Source of the DNA: an uncultured Sphingomonas sp.
GTDB lineage: Bacteria; Pseudomonadota; Alphaproteobacteria; Sphingomonadales; Sphingomonadaceae
NCBI RefSeq assembly: GCF_937859915.1
Contig: NZ_CALMAW010000118.1
Coordinates: 87,677-151,676 of the forward strand
Direction of reading: 5' to 3'
DNA: 64,000 nt
Shown here: positions 36,582 to 50,547 of the stretch, in pieces
How the letters are laid out: each line of letters starts with the position of its first letter
Position numbering within the stretch: the stretch's first letter is position 1
Translations under genes and position numbers: made by a program
Notes under the pieces: model-generated
Databases searched by the model: none
Seen by the model: only the letters and a program-made list of their open reading frames with translations
Told to the model about the DNA's origin: nothing

Positions 36582-37364
36582 CTAGCCGATTGCGATCAGC
36601 ACGAGGCTGATATTGTCGGCACCGCCGGCGGCGAGCGCGTCCGCCATCAGCTCGTCGGCGATCGTGGCGAGCGGACGCCCGCAATACTCGAGCAGGGCGG
36701 GGTCGGCGTGGCCGCGCGTCAATCCGTCCGAACAGAGCAGGAAGAGGTCGCCGGGCCGCACGGTGACGTCGCGCCGGTCAATCGCGACCTCGGCGGCGGC
36801 GCCGAGCGCGCGGGTGATGACATGCGCCTGCGGATGGCGGTCGGCCTGTTCGGGTGTCAGCGCGCCCGAATCGACCAGTTCCTGAACCAGACTGTGGTCG
36901 CGGCTGAGCCGTTCGAGCCGGCCGTCGCGCGCGCGATAGGCACGGCTGTCGCCCGCCCAGAAGAGTGTCGCGCTGCCGCCGTCGGCATGGAGCGCGACGA
37001 TCGTCGAGCCGCTGACCCGCGACGATCCCGCATTGCCCGCATGAATGTGCCGGCCCGCCGCGATCAGCGACGTCTCGATCATGTCGTCGTCCGGCGTCGA
37101 CGGCGAGCCGACCAGCGCGCGCAGCGTCTCGATGATCGCCTCCGCGGCGACATCACCTGCGAAATGGCCGCCCATGCCGTCGGCGACCGCCCACAGGCCG
37201 TGCTCCGTGCTGGCAAAGACGCGGTCTTCGTTGATCGTGCGGACTCGCCCGACATGCGTGCGCGCAATCGATTGGGTGACGGCGGCCGCATGGGCGGGCG
37301 ACGCTGCGGCGGCGCCGGACACAGCGTATCGCCGCCAGCCCGACAGCAGGCCTGCCAGATTCAT
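36582..37364 (-). CDS. PP2C-family Ser/Thr phosphatase (PppA/Stp1-like)
   Basis: RTINEDRVFASTEHGLWAVADGMGGHFAGDVAAEAIIETL; LLCSDGLTRGHAD; GGADNISLVLI. Confidence 0.9.
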   Translation of the reverse strand: MNLAGLLSGWRRYAVSGAAAASPAHAAAVTQSIARTHVGRVRTINEDRVFASTEHGLWAVADGMGGHFAGDVAAEAIIETLRALVGSPSTPDDDMIETSLIAAGRHIHAGNAGSSRVSGSTIVALHADGGSATLFWAGDSRAYRARDGRLERLSRDHSLVQELVDSGALTPEQADRHPQAHVITRALGAAAEVAIDRRDVTVRPGDLFLLCSDGLTRGHADPALLEYCGRPLATIADELMADALAAGGADNISLVLIAIG

Positions 37365-38377
37365 GCCCGCGGCCTGTCCGCCTGCGCTTCCGCATCGTCA
37401 TAGCCTTTGACGAACGCGTCGTCGAGCGAACCGCCCTCGGCCTGATCGAGCTGGCGGCGCAGATCGGCGTGGCGGTCGGCGACCTCCTGCCATTGCAGTG
37501 CGGCCTTGCTCTTGAGGATCGAGCCCTTGCCGGCGACCGCGGCGTCGACGGTGGTCGGTGCGAAGCTGTCGACTGCGGTGCGCAGCGAGGCCTGCAGGCC
37601 GGCGAAGGTCGAGACGAGGTGTCGCTTGATGTCCTGGAAGGACGCCTGAAGCGCGGCGGGCCCCGACAGGAAGCCGCTGGTGCCGGCGAGCAGCAGGTCG
37701 ATCGCCAGCCGCTGCGTCGGTGCCCATTTGAAGGGATTATTGCCGGTGCCGCTGATCGTCGTACGGCTGAGATGGTAGCGGACGCGGGCGCGATCGCGCT
37801 CGGTCATCAGGTCGCCGATGCCCAGCACCATCTGGCGATAGACCGCGCCGGCGCGGCGCATGATCTCGACCGGCTCCTCGCCCGACAGCAGCGATGCGTC
37901 GAGCCCTGCGCCTTCGCAAAACGCCTCGAGCAGCGACCCTTCCTCGAACACGCGTGGCTCGGGGGTGGCGTCGCTCCAGTCGGTCGGCACCTCGGTGGAG
38001 GCGCCGAGCGGCGGCGTGAGCACCATCGTCCGCGTCTCGTTGCCCGCCATCAGCCCCTCGTGCGGAGCGGGGGCTGCGATCAGCCGGAAGCGGCCGAGGC
38101 GCAGCGTGCTTGGCAGATCGAGCCAGACGTCGGTCTCGTCGGGCAGTCGCGCGCCGGTGCTGTCGTCATAGACGCCGTTGGCGCCCGAACAGCGCAGCTT
38201 AAGTCCGGTCCCGTCGGCATCGAAGGCGCAGTGCGTGCGCGAGATCTCGCGGTCGGGATCGGGTATCGCCCAGTCGCAGGCGGGATCGCGGCCGATCCGC
38301 ATCACGCCATCGCGCAGCATCCGGGCGTCGATCGGGTGGACCGGGTCGCTCTCGTCGAACAGGCGAAGCATGTACAC
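37361..38377 (-). CDS. tagH: FHA-domain protein with T6SS TagH/ImpI-like C-terminal domain
   Basis: GVMRIGRDPACDWAIPDPDREISRTHC FHA core; TTISGTGNNPFKWAPTQRLAIDLLLAGTSGFLSGPAALQASFQDIKRHLVSTFAGLQASLRTAVDSFAP. Confidence 0.82.
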   Translation of the reverse strand: MYMLRLFDESDPVHPIDARMLRDGVMRIGRDPACDWAIPDPDREISRTHCAFDADGTGLKLRCSGANGVYDDSTGARLPDETDVWLDLPSTLRLGRFRLIAAPAPHEGLMAGNETRTMVLTPPLGASTEVPTDWSDATPEPRVFEEGSLLEAFCEGAGLDASLLSGEEPVEIMRRAGAVYRQMVLGIGDLMTERDRARVRYHLSRTTISGTGNNPFKWAPTQRLAIDLLLAGTSGFLSGPAALQASFQDIKRHLVSTFAGLQASLRTAVDSFAPTTVDAAVAGKGSILKSKAALQWQEVADRHADLRRQLDQAEGGSLDDAFVKGYDDAEAQADRPRA

Positions 38378-38388
38378 GACGTGGTCCC

Positions 38389-40068
38389 TCAGGCGGCCCG
38401 GCGCGGCGCGATCAGCGTGGCGGTGAGCGAGATCTCGGGTTCGGCGGCGACACCGATCTGCGGCTCGAGCGCTTCGGCGGCCGCATTGAACGCGTCGAAG
38501 GCGGCGCCGAACTCGTCGCGGCGATCATGCGAAATGCGGAACGAGAGATTGCCGGTGGCAGCATCGTCGAGCGCGCGCCGCAACCGAGCAATCGGACGCG
38601 TGATCAGGCTGGCGCTGAACCAGCCGATCGCCAGCACGACCAGCATCACGAAGGCGGACAGCGCGATCAGCAGGTTGAGCGTGCTGGCGACCGCGGCATC
38701 GAGCGTCGCCCGGCGCAGCAGCAGGTCGACCTTGCCGAAATTGGCGCCGGCATAGCGGATCGGGCGGATGAAGCGGAAGCCGGCGTCGTCTCGCGCCGCG
38801 GTGACGGTCGCGCCGTCGGCCGAGATAATCGGCGCTTCGCCCGGTGCGGCGGCATAGGGGCGCCCGATCAGGCTGCGATCGCTGGCAGCGCGCACGACGC
38901 CGGTCGCATCGGTCACGACGAGACGGCGAATGCCGGTGTCATGGGCCGCGGTGTCGACGAAGGCCTGCAGCGGTGCCCAGTCCTGCTGCTCCGGCGGCAG
39001 GCCCGCATTGTCGGCGGCGAGCACGGCGGCGTTGCTGGTGATGAAGGCGGTGATCGACGAGCCCGACACCACCGCCATATGTTCGAGCGCGTGCTGCTGC
39101 CGGTCGAACACCGTGACGACGCTCGCGGCCAGCGCAAGCGCGGTTGTCGCCGCGAGGATCAGGGGCAATTTCAGGCGGAGCGGCAGGCCGCGCCGGCGGC
39201 GCGCAGGATTTTCGGCGGTGGCGGTCTCGAGATCGCGGCGTAGCGCCTGGGCGAGCTGGTCGCCGCTGGCGAAGCGCCGCTCCGGCTTCTTGGCCAGCAG
39301 CTTGTCGATGATGAAGCGAAGTCCCTTGGGACAGTCGGCGGCGCTGCGCTCGACGGGATCGGGCTGCGCCTGCGCGATCTGGAGGACCAGCGTCGCGAGG
39401 CCGGCGCCGGCGAAAGCGGGTTTGCCGGTGACCATTTCGTAGAGGACGATGCCGAGCGAGAACAGGTCCGAGCGGTGATCGACCGGAAGCCCGAGCGCCT
39501 GTTCCGGGCTCATATAGCGGGGCGTGCCGATCATCTGGCCGACCTGCGTGCGGACCAGCTGGCTGGAATCGGTGTCGCCGATGCGGGCGACGCCGAAGTC
39601 GAGCAGCTTGGCGGTCAGTCCGTCGTCGGAGAGCAGGATGTTCGATGGCTTGACGTCCCGGTGCACGATGCCGCGGGCGTGCGCGTAGGCGAGCGCGTCG
39701 GCCATCTGTGCGCCGAGCGCCAGGACGCGCTCATAGGGCATCCGGCCCTGGGCCTTCAGCACCTCGTCGAGCGGCCGGCCGGCGACCAGTTCCATCGCGA
39801 TATAGGCCACGCCATCGGCCTCGCCGACGTCGTAGATCGTCGCGATATGCGCATGGCTGAGCGTGCCGGCCGCGGTCGCCTCGCGCAGGAAACGCCGCGC
39901 GATCTCGGGATCCCGGCGGTATTCCGGCTTGAGCGCCTTGATCGCCACGACGCGGTCGATCCCGGTGTCGTGCGCACGAAACACCTCGGCCATCGCGCCT
40001 TCGCCGATCCGCGCGTCGATCCTGTAGCGGCCGAGCATGGTCATGCTGGGGTGTCCGGTCATATCCAT
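38389..40068 (-). CDS. Ser/Thr protein kinase with TM-flanked periplasmic sensor and C-terminal HAMP
   Basis: GRYRIDARIGEGAMAEVF, HRDVKPSNILL, LLDFGVAR, GTPRYMSPEQ; TM; periplasmic region IRRLVVTDATGVVRAASDRSLIGRPY; TM; FSASLITRPIARLRRALDDAATGNLSFRI. Confidence 0.88.
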   Translation of the reverse strand: MDMTGHPSMTMLGRYRIDARIGEGAMAEVFRAHDTGIDRVVAIKALKPEYRRDPEIARRFLREATAAGTLSHAHIATIYDVGEADGVAYIAMELVAGRPLDEVLKAQGRMPYERVLALGAQMADALAYAHARGIVHRDVKPSNILLSDDGLTAKLLDFGVARIGDTDSSQLVRTQVGQMIGTPRYMSPEQALGLPVDHRSDLFSLGIVLYEMVTGKPAFAGAGLATLVLQIAQAQPDPVERSAADCPKGLRFIIDKLLAKKPERRFASGDQLAQALRRDLETATAENPARRRRGLPLRLKLPLILAATTALALAASVVTVFDRQQHALEHMAVVSGSSITAFITSNAAVLAADNAGLPPEQQDWAPLQAFVDTAAHDTGIRRLVVTDATGVVRAASDRSLIGRPYAAAPGEAPIISADGATVTAARDDAGFRFIRPIRYAGANFGKVDLLLRRATLDAAVASTLNLLIALSAFVMLVVLAIGWFSASLITRPIARLRRALDDAATGNLSFRISHDRRDEFGAAFDAFNAAAEALEPQIGVAAEPEISLTATLIAPRRAA

Positions 40069-40120
40069 AGTCGCCGGTTCTACGCGGGCAATGGTTAAAC
40101 AAGGCTTGTCGCGGCCATGC

Positions 40121-40864
40121 CTATTGATGCGTCTGGACGGTATGCGCGATCCGCTGGGCGCGCGAAAGGTCGCGGGCGATCAGCGGGTTGGCAGGATCGA
40201 GCGCCGCTGCACGACTGAGCAGCGCGACCGCGCGGTCGACCTTGCCTTGGTTGAGCGCGGCGAGGCCGGCGCCGCGCAGCTGGCGCGCCAGCGCGGGGTT
40301 GGCCGCGGGCGCGGCTGATGCCGCCGGGACGGGCGCGGTAGACCCCGATGCAGCCTTGCCACGGCTCGGTTTCTGCGAGACCGGTTCGCGCGCCGCGGGA
40401 CGGGCGGCGGCCGGCGGTGCGGGGGGCGTGCCGGGGACGCGCAGGACCGTGCCCGCGGCCAGCGTTGCGGGTATCTTCACGCCATTATAGCGGGCGAGCT
40501 GGTAGAATTTGACCTTGTTGCCGAGAAAGCGTTCGGCGAGCATGATCATCGTATCGCCCGGCTGCACGGTATAGGGGAAGGATTTGGGGCCGAGCAGCTC
40601 GACCGGATCCTTCTCGATCGATTCCTCGAGCACGCGCGCGGACGGATCGGTCGGATTGCGTCGCTGGATCGCCTTGATCTGCTGGAGCGCCGCGGCTTCG
40701 TCGCCCTGATTGAGCAACGCGATGACGCTGTCGGACGTCTCCAGCGCGGGCGCGGCGGAGACCGGCTGCGGTGTCGCCGAGGGACCGTGCGAGCAGGCCG
40801 ACAGCACCAGCGTGGCGCCGAGCGAAGCAAGCATGATGCGGGCGTACGAGCGGGAGATGGTCAT
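40121..40864 (-). CDS. LysM-domain lipoprotein with TPR-like repeats
   Basis: Lipobox VLSACSHG; PYTVQPGDTMIMLAERFLGNKVKFYQLARYNGVKIPATLAAGTVLRVPG; ALNQGKVDRAVALLSRAAALDPANPLIA. Confidence 0.85.
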   Translation of the reverse strand: MTISRSYARIMLASLGATLVLSACSHGPSATPQPVSAAPALETSDSVIALLNQGDEAAALQQIKAIQRRNPTDPSARVLEESIEKDPVELLGPKSFPYTVQPGDTMIMLAERFLGNKVKFYQLARYNGVKIPATLAAGTVLRVPGTPPAPPAAARPAAREPVSQKPSRGKAASGSTAPVPAASAAPAANPALARQLRGAGLAALNQGKVDRAVALLSRAAALDPANPLIARDLSRAQRIAHTVQTHQ

Positions 40865-42504
40865 AGGCTGAGCCTTTCGGTCCGGGATTGTAGGGGCGGC
40901 CCCAGCAGCCGCGAGAGATGGGCGTCGTCGCGCACGAACGCCTGGAAGCGCTCGGGATCGAGCGGTTGCGCGAAGTAATAGCCCTGGAAATGCGTGCAGC
41001 CGTGGCGGCGCAGCCAGTCATATTCCTCGCGCCGCTCGACACCCTCGGCGAGGACGCGGATGCCGAGCCCCTGGCCGAGCGCGATCATCGACCGGCAGAT
41101 CGCCTGGCTGTCACGCCGCTGGTCGACCGACGTGACGAATTCGCGATCGATCTTGAGCTTGTCGAAGGCGAGCTGGCGCAGCGCCGAGAAGCTCGAATAG
41201 CCGGTTCCGAAATCGTCGATCGCGACCTTGACGCCGAGCGCGCGCAAGTGGCGGAACACCGTGGCGCTGCGCTCGGCATCGCCGGCCGCGACGGTCTCGG
41301 TGAGCTCGACTTCCAGCGCATCGGGAGACAGCGTGTGACGGGCCAGCGTGCGCTCGATCAGCGCAGGAAGGTCGCTGCGCTCGAGCTGGTGGCCCGAGAT
41401 GTTGACCGCGACACGCAACCCGTCGAGACCTTGACGCTGCCAGGTCCGCGCCTCGCGGCAGGCGGCGTTGAGCGCCCACAGGCCGACTTCGTCCGCAAGC
41501 CCGGACGCCTCGACGATCGGGATGAAGCGCGACGGCGGTACCGGACCGTGTACGGGATGCGTCCAGCGCAGCAGCGCCTCGGCGCCGCAGACGCGTCGCG
41601 CATCGACGTCGACCAGCGGCTGGAAGCGAAGCTCGAACTCGCCGCGATCGATCGCCCGCCGCAGATCCTGTTCCATCGCATAGCGCTCGCGCGCCGCCTC
41701 GACGGGATCGGCCGCCGGTTCGGCGGCGACCATCGCGCCGGCCGACAGGGAGGCGATCGCGCGCGCAAGCAACCCTTGCGGTGTAGCCCCCTCGGTCGGC
41801 ACCGCGGCGATCCCGATCGCGACCTCGGGGAGCCATTCCTGTGCGCCGACATGGATCGGCGCGCCGAGCGCATAGCCGAGCGCGTCGAGCTGCGCGCGCG
41901 CCGCGTCGGCGTCGGCCTCGGGACCATACCATATGGCGAGGCGGAAGCGGTCGATCTGCGCGAGCATCCGCCGGTCGCCCAGCATGCGGCGCGCCCTGTC
42001 CACGATGGCGATCAGCATCTGCTCGGCGAGCGCCGGGTCGAATGCGGTGAGGCGCTCGAAATCGGCGAGGCTGATGAGGCCGAGCACGCCGCCGGGCGCG
42101 TCCGCGCAATCGGCTTCGATCGCCGCGAACAAGGGCTCGCGCGTCGGCAGCCCGCTGATCGGATGCCGCTGCGTGACGCGCTGCTCGAGCGACCCGACCA
42201 GCTTCGACAAGCCGTCGAGCGCCTGGCCGAGCCGATCGAGCGGGCCGCCGGTCAATGTCGTTGAGTCATGATCGACCAGGATGCGCTGCGCGCGGCTCGC
42301 GAGCTCGACGATCCGGCCGTCCCGCGCCGCCCAGCAGCCTAGCGCCAGCGCGGTCGCGCCGGCTGCCAGCAGCCAGGCCAACGCCAGCGCAGGACGCGAT
42401 GCCGCCCAGCCAAGCGCGAGCAGCGCGGTGAGCGTCGAAGCGCACAGCGCAGGCCGGCTCGCCGCGCCGCGCTTCGCTCCTTCGCTCCCGATCGTCATGC
42501 CCAC
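40861..42504 (-). CDS. Membrane EAL phosphodiesterase with degenerate GGDEF domain
   Basis: GAEALLRWTHPVHGPVPPSRFIPIVEASG; IDDFGTGYSSFSALRQLAFDKLKIDREFV; AEGVE; no GGDEF signature in the preceding domain. Confidence 0.9.
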   Translation of the reverse strand: MGMTIGSEGAKRGAASRPALCASTLTALLALGWAASRPALALAWLLAAGATALALGCWAARDGRIVELASRAQRILVDHDSTTLTGGPLDRLGQALDGLSKLVGSLEQRVTQRHPISGLPTREPLFAAIEADCADAPGGVLGLISLADFERLTAFDPALAEQMLIAIVDRARRMLGDRRMLAQIDRFRLAIWYGPEADADAARAQLDALGYALGAPIHVGAQEWLPEVAIGIAAVPTEGATPQGLLARAIASLSAGAMVAAEPAADPVEAARERYAMEQDLRRAIDRGEFELRFQPLVDVDARRVCGAEALLRWTHPVHGPVPPSRFIPIVEASGLADEVGLWALNAACREARTWQRQGLDGLRVAVNISGHQLERSDLPALIERTLARHTLSPDALEVELTETVAAGDAERSATVFRHLRALGVKVAIDDFGTGYSSFSALRQLAFDKLKIDREFVTSVDQRRDSQAICRSMIALGQGLGIRVLAEGVERREEYDWLRRHGCTHFQGYYFAQPLDPERFQAFVRDDAHLSRLLGPPLQSRTERLSL

Positions 42505-42675: not shown

Positions 42676-44259
42676 TCATTTCGTGAGGCGCAGGTTGCCC
42701 GCCGTGATCGCCGAGAAGACCTGGGCCACGTCGGTCGCGATGTCCGCATTGTTGCTCGCGGACAGATAGGCACCGGGCGATGCGCAATATTGCATGGCCG
42801 AGGTTATTCCGGTGTCCATGCCCGTGTTGGAAATCAGAGCGGCATATTGCGAGTCGCCCGGTATGCTCGGATATGTCGCTTCGATCGAATAGATGTTCGG
42901 TGCCGAGCTGGTATCGCCGTTGACCGTCGTCGCCTTGATCGTGTCGCAGACGGCCTTGTAGTTCACCACGACCTGCCGATTGGCATAGGTGGTGCCGACG
43001 ATGTCCTCGGCGCCATCGGTCAGAAGGATGAAGAACGTCTTGCGGTGCAACGTGTCGGCACCGTTGCCGAGCGTTGTCTTGGCATCGAGCAGCGCCGAGG
43101 TGAAGGCGTCCGAGGTATAGGTGTAACCATGGTTGAGCGGCATCGTCACGGCCGTCGCCGGCTCGATGTCGATGGCCTGGCTGACCGACTGAAGCTGCGA
43201 ATAATAGGTCGAGATGTTGGTGGCCGTAGGCAATGGGCCGGATGCCAGATTCGGGAAGATCTTCGTCTGCTTGCCGGCGGAGGCGAACGTCCAGATCGAG
43301 ATCTGATACTGGGTCGGTGCGGCGGTCATCGGGGTCTGCAGGCCGGCAACGAAGGTCTGGATGGCGCTGTTCACCGCGTCGATCTTGAGCTGATAGCCGA
43401 GATATTTCGCAAGCACGCGCTTGTCGTCCCACATCACGCAGTCGATCGGACTCGCCGTCTGGGACGTCGCGGGACAATAGGTCAGGCTGCCCGCCTGGTA
43501 GACTTGCGACGTCGTACAGTATTGATAGCCGAAGAACGTCGTGCAGGTCTGTTTCGAGACGTTGCCGCCTGCGCAGTTTATGTTGGAGGGATTGTTGTGG
43601 CAATAATAGCTCGTGGGCTTGTTGGTTTCGGTCGAGTTGGGATCGTGGCAGGCGAACGCACAGGTGCCGGGTGAGTTGAACCGGCTGTCGGCCTGGAGCT
43701 GGGCGATCGTCGCGGCGTCCCCGCCGATCGCCATCGAATTGGAGACATCGACGAGAAACACGATCTGATAATAGATCTTGCCGCCGCCGGTCGCCTGCGC
43801 AACCGAACTGATCGGCACCGTATAGATGCCGACAAGCCGCATGAATGTCGTCGGCACGGTGGCAGTCGCGCTGACGGTCGCCGAAACGCTTCCGTCCGCG
43901 TTGAGCGCCATCGCCAGGCCCGGTGCGACCGTCTGCGCGCGCGTATCGCTGGCCTCGTTGGCGGTGAACACCTGGCTGTACTGCGCCTGCCCCAAGACCT
44001 GGGCCTGGGTCCAGGCGCTCGAGACATTTCCGTTCTGATTCATATAGCTCTGCGCGGCGCGCGCCGCTGCCAGCGCGGCCGCGTTGGCGGCCTCCAGCAT
44101 GTGCGAGCGGGACCGCGCCGCCTGCGAATAGTCTACCGCGGCGCCGACAGTCGCCATCAGGGGGATGAGAGAAAAAGCAAATGTCATCAATACGTTACCG
44201 CGTTGGTCGCGTGTCATGCGGCGCAGTAAAGAGCATAATGAACGATAGTAGACGTGCAT
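42676..44259 (-). CDS. TadG-like vWA pilus assembly protein (copy 2)
   Basis: RDQRGNVLMTFAFSLIPLMATVGAAVDYSQAARSRSHMLEAANAAALAAARAA; MIDAS DVSNSM; CAFACH. Confidence 0.82.
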   Translation of the reverse strand: MHVYYRSLCSLLRRMTRDQRGNVLMTFAFSLIPLMATVGAAVDYSQAARSRSHMLEAANAAALAAARAAQSYMNQNGNVSSAWTQAQVLGQAQYSQVFTANEASDTRAQTVAPGLAMALNADGSVSATVSATATVPTTFMRLVGIYTVPISSVAQATGGGKIYYQIVFLVDVSNSMAIGGDAATIAQLQADSRFNSPGTCAFACHDPNSTETNKPTSYYCHNNPSNINCAGGNVSKQTCTTFFGYQYCTTSQVYQAGSLTYCPATSQTASPIDCVMWDDKRVLAKYLGYQLKIDAVNSAIQTFVAGLQTPMTAAPTQYQISIWTFASAGKQTKIFPNLASGPLPTATNISTYYSQLQSVSQAIDIEPATAVTMPLNHGYTYTSDAFTSALLDAKTTLGNGADTLHRKTFFILLTDGAEDIVGTTYANRQVVVNYKAVCDTIKATTVNGDTSSAPNIYSIEATYPSIPGDSQYAALISNTGMDTGITSAMQYCASPGAYLSASNNADIATDVAQVFSAITAGNLRLTK

Positions 44260-44424: not shown

Positions 44425-45042
44425 ATGCGACCTCGAAAGGGAGCCAAAAGCCACATGGCAATCGCTATAAAAGCCCGGCAATCGCGTGCCGGGCGGCATC
44501 CGACGCGGTCGGTCGACGGGCGGCGGCGGTCCGTGCGTCTGCTCGTCCGCGATGTCAGCGGCGCGGCGATCGTGGAGTTCGGGATCGTCGCGATGCCGTT
44601 CTTCCTGCTGTTGATGGCGATTTTCCAGACCGGCCTGATCTTTTTCGAGCAGGAGATGTTCCAGACCGCCGTCAGCGATGCGGGCCGGCTCATCTATACG
44701 GGGCAGGCCAACTCCGCCGGCTACACGCAGGCCGCGTTCAAGCAGCAGGTGTGCAACCGGCTGCCCGCGCTGATTTCCTGCGCCAATGTCGCGATCGACG
44801 TGCGACCCTATTCGAGCTTCGCGTCTGCAGGACGGTTCTCGCCGGTCAACGCCAAGGGGGTCTATGACCCCACGCTGGTCACGTACAACAGCGGATCCGC
44901 GCAGACGATCGTCGTCGTCACCGGCTACGCCTTGCAGCCCGTACTCTTCCCGATGATGAGCCCCTTTGTCAGCAATGCCGGCAGCGGCAGCATCCTGCTT
45001 ACCGCCTCGGCCGCCTTCCGCAACGAGCCCTGGACATCATGA
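44425..45042 (+). CDS. TadE-like pseudopilin (copy 2a)
   Basis: VRDVSGAAIVEFGIVAMPFFLLLMAIFQTGLIFFEQEMFQTAVSDAGRLIYTGQ; collinear with 13076-13675 product. Confidence 0.82.
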   Translation: MRPRKGAKSHMAIAIKARQSRAGRHPTRSVDGRRRSVRLLVRDVSGAAIVEFGIVAMPFFLLLMAIFQTGLIFFEQEMFQTAVSDAGRLIYTGQANSAGYTQAAFKQQVCNRLPALISCANVAIDVRPYSSFASAGRFSPVNAKGVYDPTLVTYNSGSAQTIVVVTGYALQPVLFPMMSPFVSNAGSGSILLTASAAFRNEPWTS

Positions 45043-45638
45043 CCGTCCTCGCCAAAGCATTGGGTGTCGCCCGTGCGTTGAAATCCTCGTCTCGTGGCTT
45101 GGCGCTCGTCGAATTCGCGCTGCTGTTGCCGATCATGATCGCTTTGTACTTCGGGACCGTCGAGATTACCAAGGCGGTCATTGCCAAGCGCAAGCTGAAT
45201 CTTGCCGTCTATACTTTGGCCGATCTGACGTCGCAGGCGCAGGGCGTGTCGCAGACCGACCTGACGGCGATATTCGGCTCGGCGAGCGCGGTGATGGCGC
45301 CGGTGAATGTGTCCACGCTGCAGATGCGCCTGTCGAGCATCATCGTCTATCCGACCGGCAAGACCTGCGTCGATTGGAGCCAGGCCAGCGGCACGGGCAT
45401 TACCCCGCTGACCGCGGGCAGCACGACGTTCGTCATGCCGACCGTCATCACCGCGACCCCGACCACCGACACGCGCGACTTCATCGTTGCGGAGACCTAT
45501 CTCGCCTATAATCCCGGCTCGCATGGCATCATCGCGGGCACGATCGCGTTGCACGAGGGGCCGACCTATGTGGTGCCCCGCAAGTCGCTGCGCGTCATCG
45601 CCGACACGAGCATCCAGTCCTCGTCGCCCTGCAGCTGA
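45039..45638 (+). CDS. TadE/TadF-like pseudopilin (copy 2b)
   Basis: SSRGLALVEFALLLPIMIALYFGTVEITKAVIAKRKLNLAVYTLADLTSQ. Confidence 0.82.
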   Translation: MTVLAKALGVARALKSSSRGLALVEFALLLPIMIALYFGTVEITKAVIAKRKLNLAVYTLADLTSQAQGVSQTDLTAIFGSASAVMAPVNVSTLQMRLSSIIVYPTGKTCVDWSQASGTGITPLTAGSTTFVMPTVITATPTTDTRDFIVAETYLAYNPGSHGIIAGTIALHEGPTYVVPRKSLRVIADTSIQSSSPCS

Positions 45639-45667: not shown

Positions 45668-47779
45668 CTAGACGGCGATCCGCGCAATCGAACCCAGGTC
45701 GTCGCGCAGGCGGAGATAGAGAGTGCCGCCGATCGGATGCGGGACCGCGATCGCGGCATTGGGATAGCCGTCGGGCACCGCGACCGCCTGTTCGAAGCCC
45801 GGCGTCGCGGACAGCGCCGCGATCAGGAAGAGGCCATCGCCCGACAGGCTGCACTGCGCCGACGCATCCGGCGGGCAGGTCAGCTGCGCCAGTCGCGGCA
45901 GACGCACGAGCGTGCCGAGCGCGACCCACTCGCCGGCCACGCCGTCGCGGACGACGCGTGCCCGCAGCGGCCCGAAGGCGGAGGCGCCGAGCACCGCGGC
46001 CGGGGTCACGCTGACGAGCGCGACCTGCTGGTCGGCCAGTCGCAGACCATTGGCGCCCGATAGCGTCGCGGTGGCCCCGCCGGCCTCGGCGGCGATCTCG
46101 ATCGTCTCCTTGCCGACGAAGCGTGTGCCCTTGTCGGCGCGCAGCGAAACGGTGAGCACCGCGTCGCTCGGGATATCGTCGGTACCGGCAAGCGTGATCG
46201 GGATCTGGCCGGCGGCTGGCGGGCGCTGGACGGCGCGTGCGATCATCGCGGCGTTGATGCCTTTGGGCTGCGGCGCGCGCGCCAGCGTCACGCGGTCGGC
46301 GCCGGACGGCTCGGCGATGTCGATAGCCGTCCCACCGGCCTGTGCGGTCGGGGTGGGCAATGTGACGCCGATCGAATCCGGCCCGGTCGTCTTCCAGGCG
46401 GCGGGCTGCGCGGGGGCATCGCTGGCCTGGGTCGTCACCCCGGATACGCAGGCCGCGACACCGCCCGTGAGCGTGACCGTCGCGCCATGTGCCGCTTGGT
46501 CCGCGGCAAGATGCCATTGGCCGGGCTGCGGCGATGCCAGCCGCACCGACGGTCCGTCGAACGGCTGGAACCCCCAGATGCCGTGAAGCGTGGCCTCGAG
46601 CGGCGTCTTGCCGTCGGTCGGCAGGCGGCCGTCATTTCCGATGACGAGGCCGCCGCGTTCCGCATCCGGCGTCGCGGGCAGATCGACCGTCCGGCCGCCG
46701 GGAAGGCGGACGCGCAGGACGAGGTCGTGCGCATAGCGGGTCGCGAAGATCAGCGGCGCGCCGCTGACCTGCAGGAAGGGCTGCTTGGCCGCCGCGCAAA
46801 GCTGGGGCATCGGTTCGACGAGCTGGATCGGAGGTATGTGGACCGGGGCGACGATCGGCAGCGCCGTGACCAGCACCGATTTGGGATTGTGGAACGAGGG
46901 CGGCGCGTTGAGCACCAGCGCTATGCGGTCCCCGTCGAGCGTCGCGAGCGCCGGGATATATTGATATTTGGCGGTGCGGATCGAGCCGAAGATGCCGATC
47001 ACGTCGCGGATCGCGGCGATATAGGGGCTGTAATAGCCGAGCCCGCCCTGCGGCGTGGCGCTGAGCTGGAGCGCGAGATCGGCGCCCGGCCCGTTGACGG
47101 CATCGGTGATTGCGTTGCTGTGCCCGTCGTCGAGTACCAGCGCTTCCTGGTTCTGGAGCAGGCAGGCGGCCTGCAGGTCGGGCAGCTTGGCCAGGCAATC
47201 GGGGTTGATCTTGACCTGCAGGCTGCGCGACAGCAGCGGCGTGATGCGCTCGAGCCGGCCGGGGTCCCCTGCGACGGTCTTGCGGACCGCGGTGAGATAG
47301 GTGTCGAGCCGGCTGCGATCGAGCGAGGCCTGGGCCAGTTCCTGCGCCGCGCGGACGAAGGCGCCGGGGCGCCCCTGCACGGCGTTGCGCAGCGTCGAGA
47401 AATCGCCGCCGGTGGCAGGCGCCAGGAACAGGGCGACCTGTTGGGCGCCGTCGGGCACGGTGAGCGACAGTCCCTTGCGACCTTTCTTCGTCCAGATCTC
47501 CGCCTGGAAGAACCATTTGTCGGGCGGCGGATTGGTCGCACCGCGCAGGAAGGCCGCGATCAGCAGATAGTGGGCGGATTGGTCGTCCGGCAGGTCCGCG
47601 GCGATCGCGATCCGGTCTCCGGTCGCCAGTTGCGGCACTTGCGCGATCGGCAGCGTCGCACCCTGGTGCGTGACGCTCACCCGCAGCGCCGGCCCGGCAA
47701 GATCGAACTGGCTGGTCTCGGCACGTGCGGGCCCGGCTAGGGCGCCGATCAGGGCAAGAAATGCGAAGCGGCGGCGCAT
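45668..47779 (-). CDS. Large exported protein of unknown function
   Basis: ~703 aa from MRRRFAFLALIGALAGPARAETSQF (signal peptide); no motif recognised. Confidence 0.75.
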   Translation of the reverse strand: MRRRFAFLALIGALAGPARAETSQFDLAGPALRVSVTHQGATLPIAQVPQLATGDRIAIAADLPDDQSAHYLLIAAFLRGATNPPPDKWFFQAEIWTKKGRKGLSLTVPDGAQQVALFLAPATGGDFSTLRNAVQGRPGAFVRAAQELAQASLDRSRLDTYLTAVRKTVAGDPGRLERITPLLSRSLQVKINPDCLAKLPDLQAACLLQNQEALVLDDGHSNAITDAVNGPGADLALQLSATPQGGLGYYSPYIAAIRDVIGIFGSIRTAKYQYIPALATLDGDRIALVLNAPPSFHNPKSVLVTALPIVAPVHIPPIQLVEPMPQLCAAAKQPFLQVSGAPLIFATRYAHDLVLRVRLPGGRTVDLPATPDAERGGLVIGNDGRLPTDGKTPLEATLHGIWGFQPFDGPSVRLASPQPGQWHLAADQAAHGATVTLTGGVAACVSGVTTQASDAPAQPAAWKTTGPDSIGVTLPTPTAQAGGTAIDIAEPSGADRVTLARAPQPKGINAAMIARAVQRPPAAGQIPITLAGTDDIPSDAVLTVSLRADKGTRFVGKETIEIAAEAGGATATLSGANGLRLADQQVALVSVTPAAVLGASAFGPLRARVVRDGVAGEWVALGTLVRLPRLAQLTCPPDASAQCSLSGDGLFLIAALSATPGFEQAVAVPDGYPNAAIAVPHPIGGTLYLRLRDDLGSIARIAV

Positions 47780-47919
47780 AGGCAAGCGAGAAGTCCCTCG
47801 GCGCAAGTGGATCCAAGGCGCAGGATTGCCCCATATCGCCAAGACCCAGGATGAACACGGCCGACGGGACACGCCGCCACCACTCCCTTGGCGGATGAGC
47901 GAACCCTGCGCGTCGTCCC

Positions 47920-50547
47920 TCATGCGCCGCTCAGCGCTGCCGCCAGTGCGGCGCCACGGGCCTGTTTGAGCACGCCGCAATCATGCACCAACTCGACGGT
48001 CCGATCGAGCGACAGCGCGCCGCGCTGATATTGCTCGACCTTGGGCCGCATCGCGGTCTCGATTGCCGCCGCCTTCTCGACCGAGCAATAGCGCGCCGCC
48101 ATCGCGGGCAGCGTCGAGGCGGTGAAGATGCCATTGTCCTTCACGACCATATCATAATGCGCGACCAGCCAGGCGAAGGCGGTATCACGCGTCGTCGGCT
48201 CGTCGAACAGGCCGCGGAGCAACCCCAGGCGATCGCTCGAGCGCAGCCGCGTGTCGGCGAAATGCGCGATCAGCCAGCCGGCGGTCCGGCTGTCGCCGGT
48301 GCGGCCGAGCGCCCCGATCGCGGAGTCGCGGAACAGCGTATCATCGCTGCCGGCGGCCTTGTCGAACAGCGCCGCGCGCGCTGCATCGCCGCCCTGGGCG
48401 AGATAGGCGCCGAGCGCATCGCCGTATAGCGACTGATCGAGCGCGGCCTTGTCACCGCCGAGATAGGCGATGGCGGCGCTGGCGAGGGTCGCGCTGACCG
48501 CCGGGTCGCGCGCCTCGCCGGCGAGCAGCGCCACGGTCTCGCTGCGCAGCTGCTGGCGGTCGGGATCCTCGCTGAGATAGGCGCCTGCCTTGGGATCGAA
48601 GCCCAATTGCGCGAGCTTGGGCGCGTAGATCGCGGCGATCAGCGCGCGATAGGCCGGCAGCTGCGCGTCCGGGACAAGGCCGCGCGTGCGCCATGTCGCG
48701 AGGCGATGGCCACCATCGACCGCCGCGCCCGAATAGGGGTTTGCCGCCATGGCCTTGGCCGCGGCGATCAGGAGGGCGGGCGCGACATGGCCCGCCCGAT
48801 AGTCCGCCCACAGGCTGTCGGTCATCGCCAGCGCCTCGCCCGGCGCAAGCGTCGGCGCCTCGGCGATCAGCGCGCGCCATTCGGGCTCGGCCATGGAGAA
48901 GCGATAATAGCCGGTCCCGCCGGCATTGGGCATGATCGCCCCCGCGCCTGCTGCCGGCAGGGTGTCCGATGGCGTGGTCAACAGCTGGCAGGTCCGCGCG
49001 CTGCCGATCCGGTAGCACAGGGGGATCGACCAGGTTGCGGGCGCCGCATCGCTGCCCAGCATCGCATAGCGCGACTGCGCGACGGTCAGTCGGTTGTCGG
49101 CACCGCGCGTGACGCGGACGACGGGCACGCCCTGCTGATCGACGAAGCTTTTGAGCGCGGTCAGCACGCGCGGGTCATGCGCGGCCTCGGCGAGCGACGC
49201 GAAGAATTGCTCGGTCGAGGCATTGCCATAGGCGTGGCGGTTGAGATGGAGCCGGACGCCGGCCTGGAACTTGTCGTCGCCGAGGAAGGCGGCGATCATC
49301 GCGACGACCTGTCCGCCCTTGCCGTAGGTGACCGAATCGAACGCGCTGTCGATGTCGCCACTGGTGGGGATTGGCTGATGGATCGGTCGCCCGGCCTTGA
49401 GCGAGTCGATGTCCATCGCCTCGAACGCCTCGTTGATCGCGCCGACGCCGATCTTGAGATCGGGCCGCCATGCGTTGCCGATGCGATAGCCCATCCAGTT
49501 GGCGAAGCTCTCGTTGAGCCAGATGTCGTCCCACCAGGCCGGCGTCACCAGATCGCCGAACCATGGGTGCGACAGCTCATGCGCCACCACCATGCCGAAT
49601 TCCTGCTTCTGTCGGGTCGAGGCACCCTTGTCGAGAAACAGCAGGCTGTCGCCATAGGTGTCGGCGCCGGCGTTCTCCATCGCACCGGGCATGATCGGCG
49701 AACCGATCTGGTCGAGCTTGGGGAAGGGGAAGGGGCGACCGAAATAGGTCTCGAGCAAGCCGACGATCGGGCCGCTGTTCTGCAGCGCGAAGTCCATCTG
49801 GTCGCGATTGGGCTGCGTGCCGAGGATGCGGACCGCCATCGGCTGCGCGCGCTCGGCGGTCGGCGCCGCCGATCCGCTGACCGAGGCGAACGGCCCGACG
49901 CCGAAGGCGACCAGATAGGTCGGCAGCGGTCGCGTCGGCAGGAAATGATGCGTCACCATCGCGCCGGCCTTGCTGGTGCCGGACTCGGGCGCATTGCCAT
50001 AGACGGTGAGTCCCGGCCGCGTCGTCACCGAGACGGTGAAGGGCGTCTTGTAGCCGGGCTCGTCGAAGCCGGGATAGGCGGCGCGCGCATCGATCGATTC
50101 GAACTGCGTCCAGGCATACCATTGGTCGCCGACCTTGACGTGGAACAGCCCGGCCGCGCCGCTGCCGAACGGCGCGTCATAATCGAATGTCAGCGTGACC
50201 TTGCCCGCGGGCAGCGGCTGCGCGAAGTCGAGTCGCACGACCCCGAGCGGATCGACCTGCGTATAGCTCGCCCGGGTCTTGAGCATGCCTGCGTGCGCGG
50301 TGGCGCTGGCGACGTGGAGATCGCGGCCGTGGATATAGAGCGACCGGGTCTGCGCCTTGAGCGTCACGTCGATCTCGGCATGCCCGGTGAAGCGGTCCTG
50401 TTCGGGCTGGATGGTCAGATCGAGCCGATAGGCGATCGGGGTGGCGACGTCTGGCAGCCTGCCCTGCGGCACGGGCGCGGCAGGCGAGGCTGCGCAGAGC
50501 GCGGCGGGCGAGGCGGCCAGAAGCGCCGCAAGGAGGATCGAGCGCAT
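47920..50547 (-). CDS. Exported M1-family aminopeptidase
   Basis: Signal peptide; GAMENAGADTYGDSLLFLD; VVAHELSHPWFGDLVTPAWWDDIWLNESFANWMGY. Confidence 0.92.
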   Translation of the reverse strand: MRSILLAALLAASPAALCAASPAAPVPQGRLPDVATPIAYRLDLTIQPEQDRFTGHAEIDVTLKAQTRSLYIHGRDLHVASATAHAGMLKTRASYTQVDPLGVVRLDFAQPLPAGKVTLTFDYDAPFGSGAAGLFHVKVGDQWYAWTQFESIDARAAYPGFDEPGYKTPFTVSVTTRPGLTVYGNAPESGTSKAGAMVTHHFLPTRPLPTYLVAFGVGPFASVSGSAAPTAERAQPMAVRILGTQPNRDQMDFALQNSGPIVGLLETYFGRPFPFPKLDQIGSPIMPGAMENAGADTYGDSLLFLDKGASTRQKQEFGMVVAHELSHPWFGDLVTPAWWDDIWLNESFANWMGYRIGNAWRPDLKIGVGAINEAFEAMDIDSLKAGRPIHQPIPTSGDIDSAFDSVTYGKGGQVVAMIAAFLGDDKFQAGVRLHLNRHAYGNASTEQFFASLAEAAHDPRVLTALKSFVDQQGVPVVRVTRGADNRLTVAQSRYAMLGSDAAPATWSIPLCYRIGSARTCQLLTTPSDTLPAAGAGAIMPNAGGTGYYRFSMAEPEWRALIAEAPTLAPGEALAMTDSLWADYRAGHVAPALLIAAAKAMAANPYSGAAVDGGHRLATWRTRGLVPDAQLPAYRALIAAIYAPKLAQLGFDPKAGAYLSEDPDRQQLRSETVALLAGEARDPAVSATLASAAIAYLGGDKAALDQSLYGDALGAYLAQGGDAARAALFDKAAGSDDTLFRDSAIGALGRTGDSRTAGWLIAHFADTRLRSSDRLGLLRGLFDEPTTRDTAFAWLVAHYDMVVKDNGIFTASTLPAMAARYCSVEKAAAIETAMRPKVEQYQRGALSLDRTVELVHDCGVLKQARGAALAAALSGA

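Follow-up and report, generated by a model that had tools for sequence, protein, structure and literature searches.

The window considered here is a stretch of 64,000 nucleotides from an uncultured Sphingomonas sp. (contig NZ_CALMAW010000118.1, positions 87,677 to 151,676), drawn from a metagenome-assembled genome of 137 contigs that is 80% complete. At window positions 36582-42504 its minus strand carries a tightly packed array of five co-directional genes. Beginning with the first gene of the array, they are:

40861..42504, minus strand: EAL phosphodiesterase, with an N-terminal transmembrane (TM) helix at residues ~39-57, a degenerate GGDEF-like region and an EAL domain at 279-514 (PF00563, 1.6e-73)
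40121..40864, minus strand: LysM/TPR lipoprotein, with a lipobox (...LSAC), LysM (PF01476, 1.3e-8) and TPR_14 (9e-7)
38389..40068, minus strand: Ser/Thr kinase, with the kinase domain at 15-268, TM 297-315, a weak single-Cache domain, TM 466-484, HAMP at 486-535 and a disordered tail
37361..38377, minus strand: short TagH-like FHA protein, with FHA at 27-71, a disordered linker and T6SS_FHA_C at 155-328 (GTG start)
36582..37364, minus strand: PP2C phosphatase (PF13672, PP2C_2, 1.1e-10)

The EAL and LysM genes overlap by 4 bp, as do the FHA and PP2C genes, and the coordinates and the Pfam and NCBIfam matches agree with the gene content given in the initial annotation. A promoter and terminator scan of the module gave nothing above chance. 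The kinase (Pkinase, 9e-49, and HAMP in Pfam) retains the AIK, HRD, DFG and GTPRYMSPEQ motifs across its family, and the phosphatase retains NEDR, DGMGGH, GDSR, SDG and DN, so that a membrane Ser/Thr kinase and a PP2C, both with intact active-site residues, share one operon-like array. The FHA protein matches T6SS_FHA_C (PF20232, 1.3e-33) and the TagH model TIGR03354 (167 bits, cut-off 120), and the GRD, SRxHC and NG residues of its FHA domain are conserved. In the EAL protein GAEALLRW, NxS, LTE, DDFGTGYSS, K, AEGVE and FQG are kept in 52 aligned rows; the catalytic residues of this predicted phosphodiesterase are intact across the family, while the GGDEF-like part has lost its motif throughout. 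The lipobox is present in 50 of 54 orthologues of the LysM/TPR lipoprotein, which is predicted to be periplasmic or outer-membrane and to bind peptidoglycan. A few relatives' gene calls with internal stops were left out of these alignments.

Scanning 84,980 species, each represented by one genome, for the FHA protein yielded 62 loci. Two of these (L141 and L143) resemble the TagH proteins of the type VI secretion system (T6SS) and adjoin TssK or ClpV matches, which leaves 60 module loci. The order EAL-LysM-kinase-FHA-PP2C is found on a single strand in 48 of the 60, and two of these have a further EAL gene close by. In most of the remainder a contig end interrupts the module or the adjacent PP2C gene is missing, and one locus (L134) is rearranged. 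The carriers belong to the Sphingomonadales and Caulobacterales (Sphingomonas, Novosphingobium, Sphingobium, Erythrobacteraceae, Sphingosinicella, Phenylobacterium and Hyphomonadaceae). Median intergenic gaps along the module are -4, 58, 10 and -4 bp, and in nearly all loci the EAL gene either overlaps its successor or directly adjoins it. Chance can be excluded as the source of this arrangement, since the five-gene order is invariant in dozens of genomes. Clustering of open reading frames (ORFs) gave no sixth conserved neighbour: outside the five families and the antisense ORFs lying over them, every other family is limited to at most 5 of the 63 loci. Of the module genes on the complete Sphingobium replicon AP027331.1, four are annotated as hypothetical protein and one as protein phosphatase. 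The module FHA proteins form a separate family, with seven full-length matches in the sample of the order (the protein itself and six at 54-75% identity); beyond these close orthologues identity falls to 34% or less and is confined to the C-domain, the matches being the long (~500-700 residues) TagH proteins of T6SSs.

Kinase, FHA protein and phosphatase recall the threonine phosphorylation pathway PpkA-Fha/TagH-PppA, which controls the T6SS in Pseudomonas aeruginosa, Agrobacterium tumefaciens and Serratia marcescens (PMC10482370, PMC3953482). The most direct explanation would be a displaced regulator serving a T6SS encoded elsewhere in the genome, for which the TagH-type C-domain, a TssC match in 8 of 49 module genomes and close relatives of the kinase, LysM and PP2C proteins within some T6SS loci could be cited. 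TssC is, however, absent from the other 41, and DotU/TssL and Hcp were found in none of the 36 T6SS-less module genomes tested, closed genomes included, the same-genus genome G045 serving as the positive control for both searches. TssK and TssM were likewise not found in seven module genomes (G000, G036, G064, G075, G119, G159 and G342), among which G159, assembled in one contig, is rated 100% complete; the module locus L100 sits in a chromosome listed as a complete genome. Searches of the window's own genome for TssC, TssK, TssM, DotU and Hcp were negative too, but at its level of completeness this genome cannot alone prove the absence of a T6SS. TssL, the phosphothreonine target of the FHA protein in Agrobacterium, is thus missing from the T6SS-less module genomes tested. 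Where a T6SS accompanies the module, as in G045, G320 and G297, the T6SS locus holds a separate kinase (~30% identical), PP2C and long TagH of its own. The finding that by the initial annotation's own reckoning would have made the module a displaced regulator, a complete T6SS elsewhere without its own TagH, PpkA and PppA, was thus not obtained in these three genomes or in the T6SS-less majority. A displaced regulator is refuted for the T6SS-less genomes, and in general we consider it highly improbable. That the module works independently of a T6SS is strongly supported, as the initial annotation had suspected. One of the eight TssC matches is a fragment of 32 residues (G373:C1:440493-440588), in a module-bearing genome without DotU and Hcp (locus L095); here a T6SS has perhaps decayed and the module been retained.

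The kinship with T6SS loci is nevertheless close. In one T6SS subtype of Sphingomonadaceae (G031, G086:C4 and G412) the kinase, LysM and PP2C proteins, where found, are the nearest relatives of those of the module, at ~50%, ~40% and ~44% identity. In a tree of FHA C-domains those of the module form one clade (support 87/90), sister to the TagH C-domain of this subtype (93/94 for the pair), whereas in the kinase tree the T6SS-locus kinases of the subtype nest within the module kinases. A common origin is clear, and the two trees give no single direction of exchange. In the T6SS subtype the cassette is set among tss genes and includes a long TagH; no EAL match was found in the stretches read of these loci, which makes the EAL gene specific to the T6SS-free context. 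Two further observations concern the T6SSs of the window's family: the loci of G031, G083, G086:C4, G096 and G105 (L072, L073 and others) carry two tandem TssC (VipB) genes, and in G096 a short FHA protein of another kind, accompanied by a T6SS-type kinase (L079:7417-10833; G096:C1, ~911-915 kb), lies far from the T6SS locus (~1.40 Mb).

In the window the module is adjoined upstream by a TadG-like gene (42676-44259, minus strand) and two TadE genes (44425-45638, plus strand), and the initial annotation had hinted that these Tad pseudopilins belong to the machine under its control. Within as much as 9 kb to each side of the FHA gene, no TadG or TadE match was found at any of the 62 related loci. 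With no conserved tad linkage and no shared neighbour outside the five genes, the Tad target was rejected, and we give it very little credence. That part of the earlier interpretation fails, while the T6SS-free module and its tie to a c-di-GMP (cyclic di-GMP) enzyme, placed in the conserved five-gene order, both stand. The TadE genes are separated from a long aminopeptidase-like ORF by an ORF of 770 residues (45668-47980) that matches nothing in Pfam or NCBIfam at E 0.01; a relative (43%) occurs near the module in one locus, L087.

A kinase-based anti-phage defence of the PD-T4-6, Stk2 or MADS type was also considered, as PADLOC kinase models match the kinase domain (PD-T4-6 at 1e-96, for example). 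These matches cover mainly the generic kinase domain; the FHA, LysM and EAL proteins have no PADLOC match and the PP2C only a weak one, and the module has no further conserved neighbour. A defence function was accordingly rejected as resting on generic kinase matches, and we judge it most unlikely. The module is therefore related to the PpkA-Fha-PppA pathway but stands alone, being the displaced regulator of neither a T6SS nor of Tad pili.

The only invariant candidate output of the module is the EAL phosphodiesterase, and coupling to c-di-GMP is plausible. On balance, and with modest confidence, we favour the view that the module is a self-contained phosphothreonine switch leading from the envelope to c-di-GMP without a T6SS. 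A cell-wall or periplasmic cue would be sensed by the LysM/TPR lipoprotein together with the periplasmic Cache-like domain of the kinase. In the structure model of the latter a PknB-like kinase is followed by a long helix and a Cache-like domain, and then, after a second TM helix, by HAMP and a disordered tail. The best fold-search matches of the kinase are PknB; kinase domains of this kind dominate the search, which gave no match for the sensor part. By analogy, the lipoprotein may take the envelope-sensing role of TagQ (PMC10482370). The kinase would then autophosphorylate at its activation loop and at a threonine of its tail, and would also phosphorylate a threonine in the linker of the FHA protein. 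Both sites, with positions computed from the gene starts, are as follows:

38413..38418, minus strand: codons of kinase Thr551-Leu552, the conserved tail threonine, a candidate phosphosite and FHA docking site
38024..38029, minus strand: codons of FHA-protein Thr117-Met118 in the linker (RTMVLTPP), a candidate phosphosite

Position 551 is near-invariant, being Thr in 97% of 58 rows within a variable disordered tail whose other columns reach at most 67% (mean 43%). It lies in a T-x-[IV]-x-P-like context, and kinases of T6SS loci and of the DotU-containing locus described below also have threonines in such a context. Linker position 117 is Thr in 90% of 61 rows, in a region where the predicted local distance difference test score (pLDDT) is below 50. 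By analogy with DgcB, in which FHA recognises a tail (PMC6733907), and with the Fha-pTssL interaction of Agrobacterium (PMC3953482), both are likely FHA docking sites. The FHA domain would dock onto these phosphothreonines, the T6SS_FHA_C domain would then act on the membrane-bound EAL phosphodiesterase and alter local c-di-GMP, and the PP2C would reset the switch. The EAL enzyme would thus replace the T6SS as the output.

Several points weigh against this switch. The Cache assignment is weak, being made for 16 of 32 kinases at E 0.01. The evidence that would tie the FHA protein or the kinase to EAL activity is indirect. The family alignment of the EAL protein has no conserved Thr outside the catalytic domain; docking of the FHA domain on the EAL protein itself is for that reason unsupported, and was rejected. 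The EAL enzyme could, finally, be an input instead of an output. It would be an upstream input or a side branch if the module governs another, unlinked envelope process, such as cell-wall remodelling or a polysaccharide or adhesin system, an alternative that we regard as possible and rather less probable than the switch. The LysM lipoprotein, which belongs to the module throughout, is in keeping with it; the absence of any other conserved gene near the EAL-type module and the overlapping or abutting position of the EAL gene are not.

Further support for an envelope target comes from a second T6SS-less setting. When the whole class was searched by profile, the FHA family turned up in one further alphaproteobacterial family of the sample (f46), at three loci (L163:7022-18064 in G450, L164:1989-13055 in G577 and L165:7451-18548 in G749). 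Here a Cache/HAMP kinase (40-44% identical), an FHA protein with T6SS_FHA_C, a LysM/TPR protein and a PP2C are accompanied by a polysaccharide deacetylase, TPR proteins and DotU/TssL, with no EAL match at the locus. TssC was not found in the three genomes, in which TssM was not searched, and the locus is possibly a DotU-based envelope machine other than the T6SS. The pairing of the same cassette with different genes supports the idea of a portable cassette with an exchangeable output. In the broader view PpkA-Fha-PppA would be more than an accessory of the T6SS, namely a portable envelope-signalling cassette with at least three outputs: the T6SS, a locus of DotU and polysaccharide deacetylase, and, through a phosphothreonine-to-c-di-GMP relay, the EAL phosphodiesterase; we find the arguments for and against this generalisation evenly balanced.

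With the PpkA-Fha-PppA pathway the module shares a membrane Ser/Thr kinase, a PP2C, an FHA protein with the T6SS-specific C-domain and an envelope lipoprotein in the operon (comparable with TagQ). It differs in being mostly T6SS-free, in lacking the TssL target, and in its short FHA protein, Cache/HAMP kinase, LysM/TPR lipoprotein and invariant EAL phosphodiesterase. In mycobacterial switches of the PknB/GarA type an FHA protein is likewise read out by a PknB-like kinase, and the fold matches of our FHA protein include GarA, as those of the kinase are led by PknB; these switches, however, have another C-domain and no EAL protein, while the module has Gram-negative envelope parts.

A literature search, with most subscription journals outside its coverage, gave no description of the five-gene set or of a T6SS-free PpkA/Fha module. 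The T6SS_FHA_C domain and the PpkA/PppA pair have been treated as markers of T6SS regulation. Since the module forms a lineage of its own in genomes devoid of a T6SS, a TIGR03354/TagH hit can be misleading as an annotation, and what the FHA C-domain does can be studied in the absence of a T6SS. To our knowledge, few direct links between Ser/Thr phosphorylation and c-di-GMP are known. One is DgcB of Bdellovibrio, an FHA-GGDEF protein which likewise couples phosphothreonine-dependent tail recognition by FHA to c-di-GMP enzymology; there FHA is fused to a cyclase and the kinase is unknown, whereas the module has separate proteins, a phosphodiesterase, and a kinase and phosphatase in the operon (PMC6733907). 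If the EAL enzyme is indeed the output, the module would join bacterial Ser/Thr phosphorylation to c-di-GMP.

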